Position numbers and translations under genes: made by a program
NCBI RefSeq assembly: GCF_001278755.1
Contig: NZ_CP012601.1
Span: 3,224,154-3,288,153, forward strand
From: Bacillus sp. FJAT-22090
GTDB lineage: Bacteria > Bacillota > Bacilli > Bacillales_A > Planococcaceae
Length of the DNA stretch: 64,000 nt
Reading direction: 5' to 3'
Shown here: piece after piece, positions 46,942 through 56,695 of the stretch
How positions within the stretch are numbered: the stretch's first letter is position 1
How the letters are laid out: every line of letters begins with the position of its first letter
Notes under the pieces: model-generated
What the model was told of the DNA's origin: nothing
The model's database searches: none
The model's input: the letters and a program-made list of their open reading frames with translations, nothing else

Positions 46942-47478
46942 TTAACCTTGTGCAACTTCCTCGTCTTGGTAGACTGGTACCCATCCTTCAGTTGTTACAA
47001 AGATTCGTGCTGCTACTACTTTACGGTCTTCAGCAAGTGTGAAGTAATGTGTGATATTCTCCGGAACTGAGATTAGATCTCCAGGTGATAGATGCACTTC
47101 AAAGAAATTTTCATCTTTTCCTTGAATAATAAATACTCCGTGACCGCTAACAATGTAACGAACTTCATCATCTGTATGAAGATGTTTACGTTCAAAGTTT
47201 TTTAATAGTTCATCTAAGTTTGGATTAGAGTCAGATAAAGAAATGATATCAGCTGCTTTGTACCCACGACGTTCTGATATATCATCTATTTCTGCTTTAA
47301 ATGCATTTAAAATTTCTTCTTTTTCTGCATCGCTAAGATCATACTTTTCACGAAGTTTCTCTGGTAATTTTTCTATATCCCAATGCTCATAAATTACTTC
47401 TTGTTGCTCTAAAAATGCAGCAACCTCATTTTGTGCTTCAATTGTTTCATTTGTTCCTTGAATTTTAATGATAGCCAT
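46942..47478 (-). CDS. mtnD: Acireductone dioxygenase
   Basis: The 178-aa cupin has the ARD metal motif HLHTDDEVRY (two His and one Glu) and the fourth ligand in NITHYF. With Fe it converts acireductone and O2 to the keto acid 4-methylthio-2-oxobutanoate and formate, the step before methionine; with Ni it gives off-pathway products. It is the last gene of the minus-strand mtnWXBD operon under a SAM riboswitch. A ribosome binding site GAGAGGAAG precedes the ATG. Confidence 0.95.
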   Translation of the reverse strand: MAIIKIQGTNETIEAQNEVAAFLEQQEVIYEHWDIEKLPEKLREKYDLSDAEKEEILNAFKAEIDDISERRGYKAADIISLSDSNPNLDELLKNFERKHLHTDDEVRYIVSGHGVFIIQGKDENFFEVHLSPGDLISVPENITHYFTLAEDRKVVAARIFVTTEGWVPVYQDEEVAQG

Positions 47479-47499: not shown

Positions 47500-48111
47500 T
47501 TATTTTATTTGACGTAAAGTCAACTGATACTGAAACAAAAATTCACAAGCTTCAAGTAACTTCTTTGCTTCGAAACCATCCCTACCCCAAACAGTAATAC
47601 CGTGATTTCGTATAAGTACAGCTCCTTTATCACCATCTATATATGTCTGAAACTCTTCGGCGAGAAGTGGAATATGGGCATGATTTGGAATGATAGGAAT
47701 AGAAAGAATTGCATCTTCTTCCCACAAATCGAAAGCTTTAATAAGTTCTTGCCCTTGAAAATCTATTTTTCCCTGATCACCGTATAATTCGGAGATGACG
47801 TTATTAGCAACAGTGTGAACATGGAGACTACAGCCCGCAGAAGTTTTAGAATAAATAGCACAGTGCAATAATGTTTCTGCAGACGGCTTTAAAATGGTAT
47901 CTTCTATTGGCTCTCCATTTATATTTACATGTAAAAAGTCTTCTTTTGTTCGCTTATTCTTATCTTTTCCGCTTGCTGTAACTAAAAACTCTACTGGTTC
48001 ATCATTCACCTTAATTGCTAAATTTCCACTAGTTCCCATAAACCAATCTCGTTTAGCAAGTTCGTCTTTTATATCTGCTAACTCTTCCCATCTACCACGG
48101 AGCGTTATCAT
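47500..48111 (-). CDS. mtnB: Methylthioribulose-1-phosphate dehydratase
   Basis: The 203-aa protein is of the class II aldolase family: TSGNLAIKV near the N-terminus, then the zinc ligands in [10 protein letters not shown] and RNHGITVWG. It dehydrates 5-methylthioribulose-1-phosphate to the 2,3-diketo compound used by MtnW. Its start overlaps the mtnX stop by 4 bp, so the two are translationally coupled. Confidence 0.95.
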
Positions 48112-48773
48112 GTTTGAACACCTAACCTTGTTTCAATAATAGTCATGACATCTCGAAAATTTTCGAAAGGTTCATATGGAATATTCAATTCCTTGCACTT
48201 TTCAATAAGAAAATCCCGTGCTATGACAACATCTGCTAATTTTGCAGCTTCTAAGTCAGTAATAGAATCACCAATTACAACACTTAACGAATCTTTTTCT
48301 TGGAGCTTTCGAATAATGGATGGCTTACAGCATCCGCAACCTTTGCTCGTACATAAATCATCGCAGACATGCGGAAAATTGATTTGTATTCTTTCTCCTG
48401 AGAAGTCGGCTTCATTACAATAAACGCCCGAAAAAGGACCAAACTTTTCTAGCATTGGATGAACAAAAAAATCAATTCCACCACTAACAATATAGAGAGG
48501 GATATCGTGCTTTCTTGTATAAGAAACAAAATCGGCGAATCCTTCTCTAATCTCTGCCTGATCAAGCAAGTAGCTTATAATTTGATCTTTTATAGCTACA
48601 GGTAACAGAGAGAACATTTGAGCAACACCTTCTCGGATAGATTGCTTTTGCCCTAAAATATTCTCTTTGATCGGCAAGTATGCTGGGGGAGCAAATTTTT
48701 TCATAATGGATATAATATTGTCTTGGTTTGTAATGGTCCCATCAAAATCACAATAGATTACTAGCTTACTCAT
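48108..48773 (-). CDS. mtnX: 2-hydroxy-3-keto-5-methylthiopentenyl-1-phosphate phosphatase
   Basis: The 221-aa HAD-family phosphatase has motif [12 protein letters not shown] and motif III/IV region [13 protein letters not shown]. In between is a Cys cluster near residue 130. It removes phosphate to give the acireductone used by MtnD. The ATG at 48773 follows GGGGGTAAGCATT, just past the mtnW stop at 48779. Confidence 0.95.
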
Positions 48774-48778
48774 AATGC

Positions 48779-49993
48779 TTACCCCCATAGTTCCAATGCT
48801 GCTTTTAGTTCTGGAAACTGTTTTGCTGCTTCAGCTAACGGAATTCCATCAAGGACTGCTGATACGGCCTGCCTAAAGGCAAGCCCTCCTCCTGTAGCGC
48901 CAGTAGGATGACCATGCACTCCACCACCTGCATTTATAATGCTGTCTATGCCATAGTCTTCGATTAACAAAGGAACCAATCCAGGATGAATTCCAGCCGA
49001 AGGAACTGGAAAAGTTCGTTTTACTGCACTTTCTTTCGTCAATTCTTCCCCAAGTGATAGTGCAGCTGTTTTCTCCAGTGCGACGCTTCCGTATGGTGAG
49101 GGGAATAATGAAAAATCTGCCCCTGCATAACGAGTCAATTTACCAAGTAAAAGTGGTGTTGAAACTCCATAAAATGAGGATGATGTAAAAGCACCACTAT
49201 AGGCTGGATGGGCCATGAATGGCAACTGAATATCTTCATCTTCCACAAGTTCTTGAAGTACATCTAGACCATATGCATGAACATTAAATAATAGAGCGTC
49301 AGCCCCAAGCTCTTTTGCCTTTTTTGCTTTTGATTTTAAATCGGATGTCCGCCCAGAGAGGTTAACCGCATAAAGTGTTCGATGTCCAGTTTCCTCATAC
49401 ACCTGACGTAGTACTTCTTTAGCTGTAATAATTCTTTTTTCAAAAGGAGTAAGGGGGTTTTCAAAGAGAATTTCATCATCTTTTACTAAATCTACTCCAC
49501 CTAGAGCTTGGTTACGTAGCTGTTCAGATAGGTAATTGATATCTCTTCCAATTACTCCTTTAAAAATACTCATCACAAGTGGACGATTATACACTCCTAG
49601 CAATTCACGAATACTTTCAATTCCGAATCTAGGTCCTGGGAAATTATCTAAAAGGTCTGATGAGAATTCCAAGTCTAGTAGCTTTACTTCACCGTCTAGC
49701 GATAGTTTGCCGAAAACAGTTGTTAATATCGCAGGTAAATCTGCAGAGAAATTAGCACTAGGATAGTTTATTTTAATCTCTGCTTTGATTTCATCTCGTT
49801 TTAGCGGATGGTGACTATTTTCAAATTCAGTTATCGATATAACATTTCCTTTATGCTTTTTTAATTGCTCTTGCTCTAGTAACGGCAAATCAGTCCAGGA
49901 TCCTATTGTTAAACCGAGCGCAATTCCTTCAGCTTTTTTTTCAAAAGTTCCAGGTTTACCGTAAACCTGATAGAGAGTAGTAATTCCACTCAT
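48779..49993 (-). CDS. mtnW: 2,3-diketo-5-methylthiopentyl-1-phosphate enolase (RuBisCO-like)
   Basis: The 404-aa RuBisCO-like protein (form IV) has the segment [23 protein letters not shown], with the Lys that is carbamylated in the family and the acidic metal ligands, and [10 protein letters not shown] near 265. It enolises the diketo phosphate made by MtnB. It is the first gene after the minus-strand SAM riboswitch. The length is normal for MtnW. Confidence 0.95.
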
Positions 49994-50109: not shown

Positions 50110-50212
50110 TTCTTATTTCTCAGTCTACTGACTGCAAGAATTAGCACCGTGTCCATAATGGATCGGTTGCCGGGTATCATAGGGCTCGTCCCTCCACCTG
50201 CTCTAAATAAGA
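50110..50212 (-). ncRNA. SAM-I riboswitch (S-box) of mtnWXBD
   Basis: Reading the minus strand, the P1 arms TTCTTATTT and AAATAAGAA enclose the S-box blocks AGAGCAGGTGGAGGGACGAG, CCCGGCAACCG and GACACGGTGCTAATTCTTGC in the usual order. A terminator follows. A promoter with TTGACA (50272-50277) and AATAAT (50249-50254), 17 bp apart on the minus strand, would drive it. High SAM should stop transcription of the salvage genes. Confidence 0.95.
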
Positions 50213-50314
50213 AAAAGTTATTTAATTGAGTTAGTCAAATTAATAATGATTATTTCATGCAATATAAAGATTGTCAATATAGTTATTAGAATTTTTTTTG
50301 TTTTAAAAAAATGA

Positions 50315-50344
50315 TTGACATGTGTTTTTTGAATATGCTAGGAT
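50315..50344 (+). promoter_or_regulatory. Sigma-A-type promoter of the mtnKA transcript
   Basis: TTGACA at 50315 and TAGGAT at 50339 are 18 bp apart, about 35 bp before the riboswitch P1 stem. Confidence 0.6.
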
Positions 50345-50378: not shown

Positions 50379-50533
50379 CTCTTATCAAGAGCAGGCAGAG
50401 GGTAATGGCCCGATGAAGCCCAGCAACCGACCGTAATACCGTTGTGAGACGGGGCGCATTTTGCGCCGAGATGAAAATCTCCTAAGGCACGGTGCTAATT
50501 CCATCAGAAAGGTAACTTTCTGAAAGATAAGAG
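50379..50533 (+). ncRNA. SAM-I riboswitch (S-box) of mtnKA and the ABC importer
   Basis: P1 arms CTCTTATC and GATAAGAG enclose the canonical blocks AGAGCAGGCAGAGGG, GATGAAGCCCAGCAACCG and GGCACGGTGCTAATTCCATC, then the P4 arm AGAAAGGTAACTTTCT. A GGGGCGCATTTTGCGCC hairpin lies in the P3 region. The 3' P1 arm runs into AAGAGGCG, which can pair with CGCCTCTT of the terminator downstream as the antiterminator. Confidence 0.96.
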
Positions 50534-50554
50534 GCGAGAGATCTCTTATTCTAC

Positions 50555-50588
50555 GCCTCTTTCTTATGAAAGAGGCTTTTTATTTTGA
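50555..50588 (+). terminator. Expression-platform terminator of the mtnK SAM riboswitch
   Basis: GCCTCTTTC pairs perfectly with GAAAGAGGC across 4 bases, followed by TTTTTATTTT, 20 bp before mtnK. Confidence 0.88.
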
Positions 50589-50607
50589 AACGGAAAGGTA
50601 GAGAATA

Positions 50608-51798
50608 ATGACGACAGCTACAAAGAGACAATATGAATCATTAACAGAAGAAAGTGCTATTTTATATGCAAAAGAACTTAACTTCTTCCCACAAGACACA
50701 GAGTTGGAGTGTCGTGAGATAGGTGACGGTAATCTTAACTATGTATTTCATATTAAGGAATTGAACGGTGATAAGAGTCTTATTATTAAACAGGCTTTAC
50801 CATACGCAAAGGTTGTCGGAGAAAGTTGGCCACTAACGTTAAAACGAGCAGTGATTGAAGCAAATGCATTAAAAAAACATGCTGAATTTGCAGCCAATCT
50901 TGTTCCGACCGTATATGCAATTGATGAGGATCTTGCGCTTACGGTAATGGAGGATTTATCTCACTTAAAAATTGCACGTGAAGGGTTGATTAAACTTGAA
51001 TCATATCCAAACCTTTCAAAAGATATTGGAGAATATTTAGCTCAAACACTATTTCATACATCTGATTTTGCATTACACCCTTTTGAAAAAAAGAAACTAG
51101 TTTCAGAGTTTTCCAATCCAGAACTTTGTAAAATCACAGAAGATCTTATTTTTACAGATCCGTTTTTTGACTATGAAACAAATGACTTTGAAGCATTGTT
51201 GCAAGAAGACGTAGAAACTATTTGGAATAACGGGCGCTTAAAGCTAGAGGTTGCAAAATTAAAGAATAGCTTCATGACAGAAGCGGAAGCATTATTACAT
51301 GGAGATTTGCATACAGGGAGCATCTTTGCTAGTGAAACCGAAACGAAAGTAATAGACCCAGAGTTTGCTTTTTATGGACCTATTGGCTTTGATATTGGAT
51401 TGTTTTTAGCAAATCTAATCGTGCAAAATGTTACAAGAGAAGAGGATGAGCGGGGAGTTATTGTCACCCATATCAAACAAACTTGGGATGTCTTTTCGAC
51501 TAAATTTTCGGAATTATGGGACAAAAAAAGTGTCGATTCCTATAAAGACACAGATGGCTATAAAGAATATGTCTTGGATAAAATTTTCCGAGATACACTA
51601 GGCTTTGCTGGATGTGAATTAATTCGTCGTACAATCGGGCTAGCACATGTGAAGGATTTGGACAGTATCGAAGATGACGAACAACGGATTAAATTCAAAA
51701 AGCAGACCTTACAAACAGGGGAAGCACTTATATTAAAACGCAAAGATATCCATTCAATTGATGAAGTATTTGAATTATTAGAGGGGTTTCGCAAATGA
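50608..51798 (+). CDS. mtnK: S-methyl-5-thioribose kinase
   Basis: The 396-aa protein is an aminoglycoside-phosphotransferase-like kinase with the catalytic loop [10 protein letters not shown] near 231 and the metal-binding [17 protein letters not shown] near 248. It phosphorylates methylthioribose (MTR) at C1, the first committed step after MTR is formed from methylthioadenosine or taken up. It is the first gene after the SAM riboswitch. Its stop overlaps the mtnA start by 4 bp. Confidence 0.96.
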
Positions 51799-52850
51799 GT
51801 ATTCCATTATCGATAGAGTTGAACGACAAAGAATTTCGGATTTTGGATCAGCAAAAATTACCTCACGTAGTTGAGTATTTAACACTAGATACTTTAGAAG
51901 ATGTATATGATGCTATTATCACTCTGAAGGTGAGGGGTGCACCAGCAATTGGTATTACCGCTGCATATGGATTGGCTAAAGCAGCCGAAAAGTATGAAGC
52001 AAATACATTAGAGGAATTTCATCTGCAACTCAACAGGGATTTCTTGTATTTAGCTAAATCTAGACCAACAGCTGTAAATTTAGTTTGGGCTCTAGAACGT
52101 TTAAGAAGTGCAGTTGAAAATGTAGCAAGTGTACAAGAGGCGAAGGAACTTTTGATAGAGGAAGCTATAAAAATTCATAGAGAAGACGAAGCATCCTGTA
52201 GAAATATTGGCGAATATGCGTTGTCCTTGTTTGAAGGTCAAACAAAAGTTATGACCATTTGTAATGCAGGTTCAATTGCAACCGCAAAATATGGTACTGC
52301 ATTAGCACCATTCCATCTTGGGAGTGAGCGGGGAAAACAGTTTGAAGTTTATGCTTGTGAAACTAGACCTGTATTTCAAGGATCAAGGCTAACTGCGTGG
52401 GAGCTTCAGCAATCTGGAGTGGATGTAACACTTATAACAGACAGCATGGCTGCACATACAATCGGAGCAAAAGGAATCGAAGCAATTATTGTAGGGGCAG
52501 ACCGGATAGCAGAAAACGGCGACACGGCAAATAAAATCGGAACACTTAACTTAGCATTATTAGCAAAAGTGTTTAACATCCCTTTTTATGTGGCAGCTCC
52601 TTCTTCCACTTTTGATTTGACCATTAAGAATGGAAAAGAGATCCCGATTGAAGAACGTCCAGCGGAAGAAATAACGCACATTGCAGGGAAACAGGTAGCT
52701 CCGAAAAATACAAAAGTATTTAATCCTGCATTCGATGTTACACCGGGTGAATACATTACAGCCATTATTACTGAAAAAGGAATTATATATCCGGAATATA
52801 CAAAAAATATTCCTAGTTTAATAAATATAGAAAAAGGAGAACTCGCATGA
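51795..52850 (+). CDS. mtnA: S-methyl-5-thioribose-1-phosphate isomerase
   Basis: The 351-aa protein is of the eIF2B-like aldose-ketose isomerase family: VRGAPAIG near 50, the catalytic Cys in [16 protein letters not shown] and the catalytic Asp in [17 protein letters not shown]. It turns MTR-1-phosphate into MTRu-1-phosphate for MtnB. It is translationally coupled to both neighbours: ATGA overlaps occur at 51795 (with mtnK) and 52847 (with the binding protein). Confidence 0.96.
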
Positions 52851-53926
52851 AATCAAAAACAGCATGGCTTTTATCCGTATTATTAGTAATTGGAATTATC
52901 TTAACAGGGTGTCAACCAAAAGGGGATGCAAAAGAAGCAACAACTACTCCTGCTGATTCAGAAGCATCCGATAATCCGCTATCAGGGAAGAAAATCGCAT
53001 TGGTTATGCAACAAAATCTTGGTACTTTTTCTGCTCAATACATTGAAGGTGTAAAAGAACAAGTAGAGAAATTTGGTGGGACTGTAACAGTGTTTACGTC
53101 GGAAGGCGATTTAGCAAAAATGGCTTCCAATCTAGATGCAGCTGTAAACCAAGGTGTAGATGGAATTCTGATTGATCATGGAACAAAAGAAGCGTTAAAT
53201 CAAGGAGTTCAAAATGCAGTTGATAAAGGAATACCAGTCGTCGCTTTTGATGCAGGTGTGGAAGTAGAAGGAATCACAGTTTTAGAGCAAGGCGATCAAA
53301 AGATGGCTGAAATGACATTAGAAAAATTAAAAAATGATGCTAATGGTGAAGCGAATATAGTGAAAATCTGGGTAGCAGGTTTTGCACCTATGGAAAGAAG
53401 ACAAGTTGCCTACGAGCAATTCTTAAATGAAAATCCAGGTATTAAAGAAATTGCAACATTTGGTGCAGCGACACAAAATACAGCATTAGACACACAATCG
53501 CAAATGGAAGCGATTCTAAAACAATACCCAAATGAAGGAGAAATCACAGCAGTTTGGGCAGCTTGGGATGAATTCGCAAAAGGTGCAGTACGCGCTATTG
53601 AGCAAGCTGGAAGAACAGATATTAAAGTTTATAGCATTGATATGAGTGATGAAGATTTACAAATGATACAAAAAGAAAATAGCCCATGGGTTGCCTCAGC
53701 GGCAGTGGATCCAATGGATATAGGACGTATTCAAGTGCGTTATTTATATCAAAAAATAAATGGTGAAACTCCTGAAGAAAAAGTTGTTTTAGAACCAGTG
53801 TTTGTGGATGCTGAAAAGCTTCCGGAAGAAACAGTGACGACAAATGACTTACATGAATATATCGAAGGTTGGGGAGCAAGCGAACAAGGTTACACAGAAG
53901 CTTTGAAAGAGTTAGAAAAACAATAA
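52847..53926 (+). CDS. Sugar-type ABC transporter substrate-binding lipoprotein (probable methylthioribose)
   Basis: The 359-aa protein has a lipoprotein signal ending LTGC (Cys at about 22) and a periplasmic-binding-protein type 1 domain of the ribose/galactose kind ([21 protein letters not shown], then [27 protein letters not shown]). Its ATG overlaps the mtnA stop, and it shares the SAM-riboswitch transcript. A purine-type or pentose ligand is expected for the fold; methylthioribose or methylthioadenosine is the inference from context. A hairpin follows the stop. Confidence 0.9.
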
Positions 53927-53938
53927 TGATACAAATGT

Positions 53939-53973
53939 AGCTGCCCTAAAAGGGGGGCAGCTTCTTTTTAAGA
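53939..53973 (+). terminator. Intra-operon hairpin after the binding-protein gene
   Basis: AGCTGCCC pairs perfectly with GGGCAGCT, followed by TCTTTTTA. It may end part of the transcripts so that binding protein exceeds the membrane subunits. The 220 bp beyond it (to 54195) holds no gene I can support. Confidence 0.7.
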
Positions 53974-54195
53974 AGCTTTGTTTCATCGGAAGTTTCCGGG
54001 AGGTACGAGCGATGATGGGCTCTTTCAATCTGCGGAGGCTCATGTGTAACTTTCGGCAACAAAGCGCACATTCGTGTTTTGTTCATTAGCGTAATTAAAC
54101 ACATTCTATAAAACGCTTCTAAAATCAGCATTCACAATAACAAGGCCAACTAGTTAAAATTCAACTGGTATATTGCCTTAAGAAAGGAGATCATC

Positions 54196-55701
54196 ATGGC
54201 TAATCCTTTTCTTTTTATGACTTCCATACGTAAATCATTTGGAAATGTGAAGGCACTAGAAGAGGCCGAATTTCATCTTGAAAAAGGGGAAGTACATGCA
54301 TTGCTAGGTGTTAATGGAGCAGGTAAAAGCACGCTTATTAAAATTTTATCCGGCGTATATGAGCAAGATGAAGGTGAAATAGTTTTAGAAGGTAGTAGTG
54401 TTCGGCTTCGTTCCCCGAAAGCAGCAAAGGAACACGGTATCTATTGTGTTTATCAAGAGGTGGATACAGCAATTGTTTCGGAATTATCGGTCGCAGAAAA
54501 TATTATGCTAGATAAAATCGCTACGAATAATAATTTGTTTTTATCCACATCCAAGCTACAAACGGAAGCTAAAAAAGCACTGAAGCATTTGCAAGTAGAA
54601 AACATTGCTGTCAATCAACCGGCATTTAAACTTACATTAGCTGAAAAACAATTAGTATTAATTGCACGAGCTCTTGTAAGCTCGGCAAAGATTATTATTT
54701 TTGATGAACCAACTGCCCCTTTGTCTCTCCACGAATCCAAAAAGCTTTTTTCGGTAATTGATCATCTGAAATCGCAAGGAGTCGGCTGTATATTTATCTC
54801 TCATCGTCTTCCAGAAGTATTTGAAATCAGTGATCGAATCACTGTAATGCGAGATGGAAAGCTTGTAAAAGTTTTTAACACAGAAACTGCTCAACAGAAT
54901 GAGATTATTGAAGCGATGCTAGGAGTATCTTTTAATTTTGAACAGGCAGATACAAATCATACTTTAGGAGAAAAAATCCTACAGGTTACAGAATTATCGG
55001 ATGGACAGAAATTAAAGGAGCTTTCCTTTACTGTTTCTGAAGGGGAGATTGTTGGTATTGTAGGCCTTGTAGGAGCAGGAAAAACGGAGCTAGCTAAAGC
55101 CTTATTTGGCTTGGGATCATTAGTAAAAGGTAGTGTGAACCTTTCAGGCAAAGAGTTAAAAGCGAAACATCCAGCAGACGCCATTCGAGCAGGAATGGCA
55201 CTAATTCCAGAGGAACGCAGAAAAGAAGGCTTATTTGTACATGAGTCGTTACAAACGAATTCTTCCTTTCCGAATTTAAAGAAATTTTCACGGCTTCTGT
55301 TTATGGATAAAGCTGCTGAACGCAACTTTGCAAAGGACATCATCAATCGCTTAAAAATTAAAACGGATCATACGGAAACACCACTTGTGCATTTAAGTGG
55401 AGGAAATCAGCAAAAAGTAGTAATCGGAAAATGGATGTCGCGCAACTCTAAAGTGTATTTATTTGATGAGCCGACTAAAGGTGTTGATATTGGAGCGAAA
55501 AAGGACATTTTTAATTTAATTCGTGAGCTGGCGAATAATGGTAAAGGGTGTCTATATTTTTCGAGTGAGATTCAAGAAGCAATTGGTATTTCCGATCGAC
55601 TTCTAGTTATGTATAACGGTCAAATCGTGAAGGAGTTTTCACGTGAGGATGCGACCCAAGAAAGGATTTTGTTGTATGCAAGTGGTGGAAAAGAAGAGTA
55701 A
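54196..55701 (+). CDS. Sugar-type ABC transporter ATP-binding protein (two ABC domains)
   Basis: The 501-aa protein has duplicated ABC domains of the RbsA/MglA type. The first Walker A is GVNGAGKS and its signature region (LTLAEKQLVLIARAL) is degenerate; the second Walker A is GLVGAGKTEL, with signature LSGGNQQKV and Walker B VYLFDEPTKGVD. Such degeneracy is normal in this family. AAGGAG precedes the ATG. It powers the importer with the neighbouring genes. It overlaps the permease gene by 26 bp. Confidence 0.92.
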   Translation: MANPFLFMTSIRKSFGNVKALEEAEFHLEKGEVHALLGVNGAGKSTLIKILSGVYEQDEGEIVLEGSSVRLRSPKAAKEHGIYCVYQEVDTAIVSELSVAENIMLDKIATNNNLFLSTSKLQTEAKKALKHLQVENIAVNQPAFKLTLAEKQLVLIARALVSSAKIIIFDEPTAPLSLHESKKLFSVIDHLKSQGVGCIFISHRLPEVFEISDRITVMRDGKLVKVFNTETAQQNEIIEAMLGVSFNFEQADTNHTLGEKILQVTELSDGQKLKELSFTVSEGEIVGIVGLVGAGKTELAKALFGLGSLVKGSVNLSGKELKAKHPADAIRAGMALIPEERRKEGLFVHESLQTNSSFPNLKKFSRLLFMDKAAERNFAKDIINRLKIKTDHTETPLVHLSGGNQQKVVIGKWMSRNSKVYLFDEPTKGVDIGAKKDIFNLIRELANNGKGCLYFSSEIQEAIGISDRLLVMYNGQIVKEFSREDATQERILLYASGGKEE

Positions 55702-56695
55702 GGTCAAAGAAAGAGGAATTCAATTTCTATTTAAATATGGTGCAATTGCCTTGCTATTGATAATTATATTGTACTTTAGCACTATAAGCAGTGCCTTTTT
55801 TACATATGGAAATTTCACAGATATATTACGTTCCATTTCCATTGTAACGCTCTTAGCATTAGGAGTTACCTTTACGCTAGTAGTAGGAGGTTTCGATTTA
55901 TCAGTAGGTTCTACGATGTCTCTATCTACTGTCATTACTGCTTCGTTAATGGTGTGGTATGAGATGCCGCTTTGGCTCGTACTAATCTTACCTATTGTAA
56001 TAGGAGTGTTGGTTGGATTATTGAACAGTTTTCTTATTGTAGTTTTAGGAATTCCAGATTTACTTGCAACGTTAAGTATGATGTATATAGTGGCGGGCTT
56101 TCACCGTACATATACAGAAGGATACTCGATATACAATAATATGCCGCTTACTTCTGGAGGGACGGCACCGGGGCAATTCTCTGAAGCATTTCTTTGGATT
56201 GGCCAAGGGAGAATGCTCGGATTACCAGTTCCAGTTTGGATAATGCTTGTCCTAGTAATTATCGCTTATGTTGTACTTAACCATACTCGTTGGGGACGTG
56301 TTTTGTATATGACGGGTGGAAATGCTGAGGCTGCAACATTGTCAGGAGTGAATACCCGTAAAGTAAAATGTGCTGCATATGTAATTTCTGGTGTTTTTGC
56401 TTCGATGGCAGGTATATTGTTTACAGCACGTGTTGGTTCAGGTCAAATTGATGCGGGTGCACCACTTTTAATGGAAGCTGTAGCAGCTGTCTTTGTTGGA
56501 TATTCTGTCCTTGGTGCTGGAAAACCAAATGCTATCGGAACATTTTTTGGAGCAGCGGTTATCGGGATTCTCTTGAATGGATTAACGATACAAAACTTAC
56601 CGTATTATGCCTTTGATATTATTAAAGGAGCAGTGCTCGTTTCAGCTCTTGCCGTAACTTATATTTACGCTAAAAAACGGTTCACCCAAATCTAA
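55676..56695 (+). CDS. Sugar-type ABC transporter permease
   Basis: The 339-aa protein is an RbsC-like permease with about ten helices. It has the family segments GVTFTLVVGGFDLSVGSTMSLS near 70 and NTRKVKCAAYVISGVFASMAGI near 220. The ATG at 55676 lies within the ATPase gene and follows AAAGGA by 9 bases; the longer frame from 55643 lacks a site. It completes the probable thiosugar importer of the mtnKA operon. Confidence 0.92.
   Translation: MQVVEKKSKVKERGIQFLFKYGAIALLLIIILYFSTISSAFFTYGNFTDILRSISIVTLLALGVTFTLVVGGFDLSVGSTMSLSTVITASLMVWYEMPLWLVLILPIVIGVLVGLLNSFLIVVLGIPDLLATLSMMYIVAGFHRTYTEGYSIYNNMPLTSGGTAPGQFSEAFLWIGQGRMLGLPVPVWIMLVLVIIAYVVLNHTRWGRVLYMTGGNAEAATLSGVNTRKVKCAAYVISGVFASMAGILFTARVGSGQIDAGAPLLMEAVAAVFVGYSVLGAGKPNAIGTFFGAAVIGILLNGLTIQNLPYYAFDIIKGAVLVSALAVTYIYAKKRFTQI

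Follow-up and report, generated by a model that had tools for sequence, protein, structure and literature searches.

A transporter of the ATP-binding cassette (ABC) type for 5-methylthioribose (MTR) is reportedly named MtnABC in the abstract of Rodionov et al. 2004, the reference for that proposal. The locus considered here lies in a window of 64,000 nt, the whole stretch of DNA that was analyzed, from Bacillus sp. FJAT-22090 (C1:3224154-3288153, contig NZ_CP012601.1; genome of 4.21 Mb in one contig), and is read, with a probability of roughly 85%, as a methionine-salvage operon that carries an MTR importer of its own. On the + strand, an S-box, mtnK and mtnA are followed in this order by the genes for the binding protein, ATPase and permease of a sugar-type ABC importer, and on the opposite (-) strand a second S-box precedes mtnW, mtnX, mtnB and mtnD. 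The finding is not new, because an earlier account (PMC3228920) already describes a probable MTR ABC transporter whose genes have an S-box in Bacillus cereus and met boxes in gammaproteobacteria, and the annotations "5-methylthioribose ABC transporter" or putative methylthioribose ABC transporter are in use, as excerpts of two further papers indicate (PMC9502454, PMC7843439). The prediction of an MTR importer repeats this published one, and the arrangement is sound and largely known.

Several described systems can be set beside this locus. The MtnABC / MtrACB transporters, for which the same substrate is predicted, likewise bring together a sugar-type binding protein, an ATPase and a permease, and in B. 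cereus, as far as the excerpted source extends, they share the S-box and the company of methionine-salvage genes; the gammaproteobacterial genes differ, according to the same excerpt, in using met boxes (MetJ) rather than an S-box. Linkage to and co-regulation with methionine salvage across genomes, by which membership in this group was judged, were found for the importer family, the exceptions being the loci without an S-box (31/105). B. subtilis MtrA (YfnA), a non-ABC transporter, resembles the importer in its proposed substrate and pathway and differs in being named as a single influx protein. The RbsABC ribose importer agrees in subunit make-up and general family, whereas the window proteins fall below the curated cut-offs and are altered at positions aligned with the ribose-bound structure 2fn8. 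Among solved structures, a sugar ABC transporter protein of Yersinia enterocolitica (PDB 5ulb) is the best relative by sequence, although its title names no substrate; TLET_1677 of Thermotoga lettingae (PDB 4ry8), the second best, shares pocket positions with the window protein but comes from a distant species.

The evidence that carries the assignment is chiefly comparative. A survey of 299 class genomes found the binding-protein family (E-values up to 1e-30) in 105 genomes, with 106 copies, and mtnK in 144; mtnK accompanied the family in 104 of the 105, and 58 of the 106 copies lay within 5 kb of it. In those 58 cases, mtnK was upstream on the same strand 38 times (with mtnA between in 37), downstream 13 times and divergent 7 times, and the ATPase and permease were present in all 105 loci other than the window. 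The sole survey genome with the family but without an mtnK match was G005 (locus L060), from whose assembly mtnK may be absent since it comprises 2.0 Mb in about 100 contigs. A ribose-type binding protein of the FJAT-22090 genome (C1:3850071), used as a control query against the same 299 genomes, matched 141 genomes, 93 of which had mtnK, and none of the 150 copies listed lay within 5 kb of mtnK; this control is a mixed set, because most matches are 33-42% identical and a few copies are unlisted. Chance nearness of the importer to mtnK was set aside on the strength of this control.

Co-regulation was assessed by scanning the loci for S-boxes with model R1; alignment A2 used 11 of the genome's 12 S-boxes, both window copies being among the 12 and the + strand copy being left out for its insert. 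A same-strand S-box was found upstream in 74 of the 105 other loci, ahead of mtnKA in 36, no more than 700 nt from the binding-protein gene in another 36 and ahead of mtnW, about 3.3 kb upstream, in the remaining 2. Where the S-box lies within 700 nt, mtnK is divergent in 7 loci and absent from the retrieved stretch in 29, and of all the signs that the importer is itself part of the S-adenosylmethionine (SAM) regulon, such an S-box accompanying it without adjacent mtnK is the strongest. Named loci, taken as the best 80 of a larger number of matches and overlapping the survey, gave an S-box upstream in all 40 loci outside Paenibacillus, with mtnKA in the window order in 22, mtnK arranged otherwise in 3 (Aneurinibacillus) and no mtnK in the locus in 15. 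Linkage of the transporter family to mtn genes and to S-boxes in other genomes, on which the preliminary description had made its assignment depend, was thus borne out on both counts. Two same-strand S-boxes stand upstream of the importer in four loci (L068, L065, L071 and L061, from G066, G127, G160 and G181), spaced by about 185-200 nt in three of them and by about 760 nt in L061.

The binding protein, whose closest named relative is from Psychrobacillus (89% identity), offers a second line of evidence. Among solved structures its sequence scores highest with 5ulb (223.6 bits, or 422.3 bits when profile A3 is used) and 4ry8 (214.9 bits), compared with 98.4 bits for the best ribose-named one, and the title of 4ry8 begins "Crystal structure of 5-methylthioribose transporter solute binding protein TLET_1677 from Thermotoga lettingae TMO TARGET EFI"; a search of one paper collection for 4RY8 and related terms found no paper. 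A comparison of pocket residues, which had been suggested in the preliminary description, revealed several positions common to the window protein and 4ry8 that differ in ribose-bound 2fn8: in the sequence alignment, the former two share G59, F61, Y65, D110, H111, G112, W240 and D288, the corresponding 2fn8 residues being N, W, L, N, P, T, N and F, respectively. All three proteins have D135, R185, D241 and D265, and positions 136 and 287 are R and Q in 2fn8, A and V in the window protein and L and T in 4ry8. With respect to the RbsB-type residues which we take to contact ribose, aspartates 135 and 265 are kept, and N110, R136, N240 and Q287 of 2fn8 are replaced by D, A, W and V; the ribose pattern would accordingly appear to persist in two aspartates, with much else replaced, mostly by 4ry8-like residues. 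The identity between the window protein and 4ry8 (32% over 107 residues) was taken from a poor model of the former (mean predicted local distance difference test score of 47.9, folded without an alignment), which served to find PDB entry titles and whose alignments are not evidence beyond this one figure.

The preliminary description had left the cargo as either MTR or methylthioadenosine (MTA), of which the first is supported by the linkage, the S-box and 4ry8 and the second is less likely. MtnK acts on free MTR, and MTR is the likelier substrate for that reason, as MTA would need nucleosidase cleavage first. The MTA/S-adenosylhomocysteine nucleosidase MtnN (352.6 bits) is encoded elsewhere in the genome, as is the spermidine synthase SpeE (400.5 bits), so that MTA and MTR should both arise inside the cell. 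Overall, MTR is favored by a wide margin over MTA, 5-deoxyribose and S-ribosylhomocysteine.

Alternatives to MTR nevertheless have to be weighed. That another 5-modified ribose (5-deoxyribose, S-ribosylhomocysteine or MTA) is the main substrate is unlikely, even though these ligands share the ribose part, the compared positions do not separate them, and MtnK and MtnA presumably serve as enzymes of a dihydroxyacetone phosphate shunt. Such a shunt for 5'-deoxynucleosides and 5-deoxypentoses does exist, as excerpts of two papers describe (PMC10986504, PMC12632272), but the locus includes mtnWXBD, the S-box-controlled branch towards methionine, 4ry8 is named for MTR, and MtnK would be unable to use MTA until MtnN has cleaved it, all of which argues for MTR instead. 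Far less credible still is an ordinary transporter of ribose or another sugar that merely adjoins mtnKA: the top NCBIfam matches of the three subunits are indeed RbsB, AraG and ribose permease, yet all three remain below their curated cut-offs (the binding protein reaches 59.7 of the 337 bits required by the RbsB equivalog), the four 2fn8 residues N110, R136, N240 and Q287 are replaced as noted, mtnK occurs in nearly every genome with the binding-protein family, and the separate binding protein at C1:3850071 has ribose-named proteins as its best solved relatives.

Other observations weigh against an MTR importer or limit the firmness with which it may be proposed. The published MTR ABC transporter had not been functionally characterized as of 2011, by the available part of the account (PMC3228920), MTR influx in B. 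subtilis is assigned to MtrA/YfnA in an excerpt of another (PMC5743806), and MTR binding and transport by the Bacillota members are themselves inferred. No S-box was found upstream in 31 of the 105 loci (7 with at most 1.6 kb of upstream DNA, 17 in family f3 and a further 7), and in the 10 of these that were rechecked with Rfam gathering thresholds no family was matched; moreover, 40 of the 144 mtnK genomes gave no match to the transporter family. The control protein also accompanies mtnK above chance (93/141, odds ratio of about 4), albeit far less strongly, and the Fisher test overstates significance because genomes of the same family are not independent. The window protein and 4ry8 differ at positions 62 (S and F), 183 (E and D), 136 and 287, and these differences, together with the moderate identity, imply that fine specificity could differ; the 4ry8 crystal, in addition, is only presumed to hold MTR. 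Lastly, a single transcript is made less certain by the 269 nt, containing a hairpin, a T-run and repeat-like DNA, between the binding-protein and ATPase genes.

Control of the operon would rest on its leader. The SAM-I riboswitch aptamer upstream of the first gene exceeds the curated score (Table 1), and a chance match was set aside on score and position; the S-box ahead of mtnK, mtnA and an RbsABC-like importer, as originally reported, is thereby confirmed, its coordinate included. The aptamer, one arm of which is extended by an insert of some 45 nt, ends 75 nt upstream of mtnK. S-boxes of 149-157 nt occupy the equivalent place in Psychrobacillus, Planococcus and a Lysinibacillus relative. 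Folding predicts a competing terminator and antiterminator, in that the segment 50515-50568, folded alone, attains -17.9 kcal/mol (z-score of -3.6) with the 3' strand of P1 paired to the 5' half of the terminator. In a standard S-box, high SAM causes the aptamer to free the terminator and expression is turned off, while low SAM permits the antiterminator; judging from its parts, the leader appears to be of this ordinary design and would be off at high SAM. For the candidate promoter at 50315-50344, position is the main argument, because such sites are no commoner than in shuffled sequences.

Whether the five genes form one transcript, as the preliminary description had it, is answered in part. 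The genes lie in order on one strand, and the two ATGA overlaps are present as described between mtnK and mtnA (51795-51798) and between mtnA and the binding-protein gene (52847-52850). Translational coupling across these overlaps may be supposed; the binding-protein gene also shows, by eye, an AAGGAG site of its own. Continuity is weakened within the importer, where the 269-nt gap contains the hairpin and an insert. It is conceivable, if rather doubtful, that transcription stops at the hairpin at 53939-53962 and that the ATPase and permease are read from a separate promoter in this gap, as the nine-pair stem with its T-run at the start of the gap and a promoter-like match (10/12) at 54131-54160 might suggest; such matches, however, are not above chance (14 found, compared with 22.2 in shuffles), the gap, taken up to where the ATPase match begins, is shorter than 40 nt in 46 of the 105 loci (40 nt or longer in 59), and in six of seven Psychrobacillus relatives, in which the gap is 57-63 nt, a comparable hairpin at the same place directly abuts the ATPase ribosome-binding site and leaves no space for a promoter. 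A comparable hairpin also occurs in survey loci L053-L057, and in the seventh Psychrobacillus relative (L174) the gap is 161 nt with no such hairpin seen by eye. The feature is not general, since a strict hairpin-plus-T test on the gap was passed in 12 of 105 loci, and the 10 terminator-like hairpins found in the region, compared with a mean of 5.2 (standard deviation of 2.4) in shuffles, are partly expected by chance. The hairpin is probably a damper by which the binding protein would outnumber the ATPase and permease, an excess that is common in ABC operons. Nearly 190 nt of the gap (53965-54150) have 14 other partial matches in the genome (71-80% identity), and this extra DNA is read as an insertion.

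The features of the locus are collected in Table 1. By eye, the binding protein carries the lipobox LTGC, and the permease, whose longest open reading frame begins at 55643, has a ribosome-binding site AAGAAAGGA that favors the ATG at 55676; translation probably starts there, so that the gene would overlap that of the ATPase.

Table 1. Features of the methionine-salvage locus and its predicted MTR importer (window positions).
Feature	Position	Strand	Basis and remarks
Promoter-like site, sigma-70-type (TTGACA, 18 nt, TAGGAT)	50315..50344	+	Upstream of S-box; 10/12 matches, TG before second hexamer
SAM riboswitch (S-box) aptamer	50379..50533	+	RF00162, 78.5 bits, gathering 44.4
Predicted antiterminator (P1 3' strand and terminator 5' half)	50524..50566	+	Folding
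Leader terminator hairpin, then T-run	50555..50576	+	Hairpin prediction
mtnK, S-methyl-5-thioribose kinase	50608..51798	+	TIGR01767 550.6 bits, cut-off 275
mtnA	51795..52850	+	TIGR00512 448.8 bits, cut-off 279; ATGA overlap with mtnK
Lipoprotein-type solute-binding protein, predicted MTR binder	52847..53926	+	Peripla_BP_4 140.9 bits; ATGA overlap with mtnA
Terminator-like hairpin and T-run, binding-protein/ATPase gap	53939..53962	+	9 pairs
Repeat-like DNA, approximate limits	53965..54150	.	Widens binding-protein/ATPase gap to 269 nt
ABC importer ATPase, sugar-type, two ABC domains	54196..55701	+	AraG 486.1 bits, below cut-off 689; two ABC_tran stretches
ABC importer permease, sugar-type	55676..56695	+	BPD_transp_2 145.8 bits; ribose permease 206.6 bits, below cut-off 398
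Second S-box, divergent, ahead of mtnW	50110..50213	-	RF00162, 81.6 bits
mtnW	48779..49993	-	TIGR03332 651.5 bits, cut-off 513.6
mtnX phosphatase	48108..48788	-	TIGR03333 309.9 bits, cut-off 303.2
mtnB dehydratase	47500..48111	-	TIGR03328 205.8 bits, cut-off 137.05
mtnD, acireductone dioxygenase family	46942..47478	-	Pfam ARD 148 bits, cut-off 27; without NCBIfam match

The same importer is arranged otherwise in Paenibacillus. The Paenibacillus-type loci comprise 40 named ones (within L207-L252) and the 17 of survey family f3 (L070, L072 and L074-L088), and these 57 loci represent fewer than 57 genomes because the sets share at least two genomes (L249 and L251 correspond to G123 and G198). No S-box was found at the importer in any of them, mtnK is absent from the locus in all 40 named ones, and it follows the permease in 2 of the 17 survey loci (L074 and L088). 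Upstream on the same strand lies spoIVA in 14 of the 40 named and 15 of the 17 survey loci, mostly with about 190-360 nt between the matches; read-through from spoIVA was set aside, as a terminator-like hairpin and a promoter-like site lie between the two in L249 (inspected by eye, in few loci). The motif AATTCCNA or TNGGAATT occurs within 250 nt upstream of the binding-protein gene in 30 of the 40 named loci, compared with 4% of stretches drawn at random from that DNA, as well as in 9 of 34 loci tested among the 40 outside Paenibacillus, and is possibly a repressor operator. A palindrome, TGTGA-N6-TCACA, is present in 16 of the 57 leaders (L249, L070 and 14 more), with 16 counted in the whole 717 kb, and some of these loci are the same genome twice. 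The motif may resemble CymR-type operators; no CymR consensus was printed in the passages searched for it, and the name stays a tentative lead. Tentatively, the MTR importer may be pictured as a sulfur-scavenging module that moves between regulatory regimes, being S-box-controlled in most sampled Bacillales, with or without adjacent mtnKA, and in Paenibacillus off the S-box, nearly always off mtnKA, often behind spoIVA and perhaps governed by a repressor at the AATTCCNA/TNGGAATT-type operator, conceivably a cysteine-sensing Rrf2 protein (CymR-type).

If the window does encode a methionine-salvage operon with its own MTR importer, low SAM would allow the leader antiterminator to form and transcription to proceed into mtnK-mtnA and the importer genes, while high SAM would lead the aptamer to free the terminator. 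The lipoprotein would capture MTR outside the cell, the ATPase and permease would import it unphosphorylated, and MtnK would phosphorylate it for isomerization of the product by MtnA, the pathway being established and its supply by import predicted; the divergent S-box operon mtnW-X-B-D would then carry the product towards methionine. The ATPase and permease would probably be expressed at a lower level than the binding protein because of the hairpin that follows its gene. Such an importer would recover leaked or environmental MTR, and excretion of MTR by E. coli is on record in excerpts of two papers (PMC3228920, PMC6302742).

The understanding of S-box or mtn systems is unchanged by these results. 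The survey and its control nonetheless add evidence that, across Bacillales, the transporter family is part of methionine salvage, and an old prediction from gene context can now be put to a straightforward test of binding and growth. Finally, the Paenibacillus lineage represents a natural case of the same importer without the riboswitch, which should be useful for asking which sulfur signal matters.

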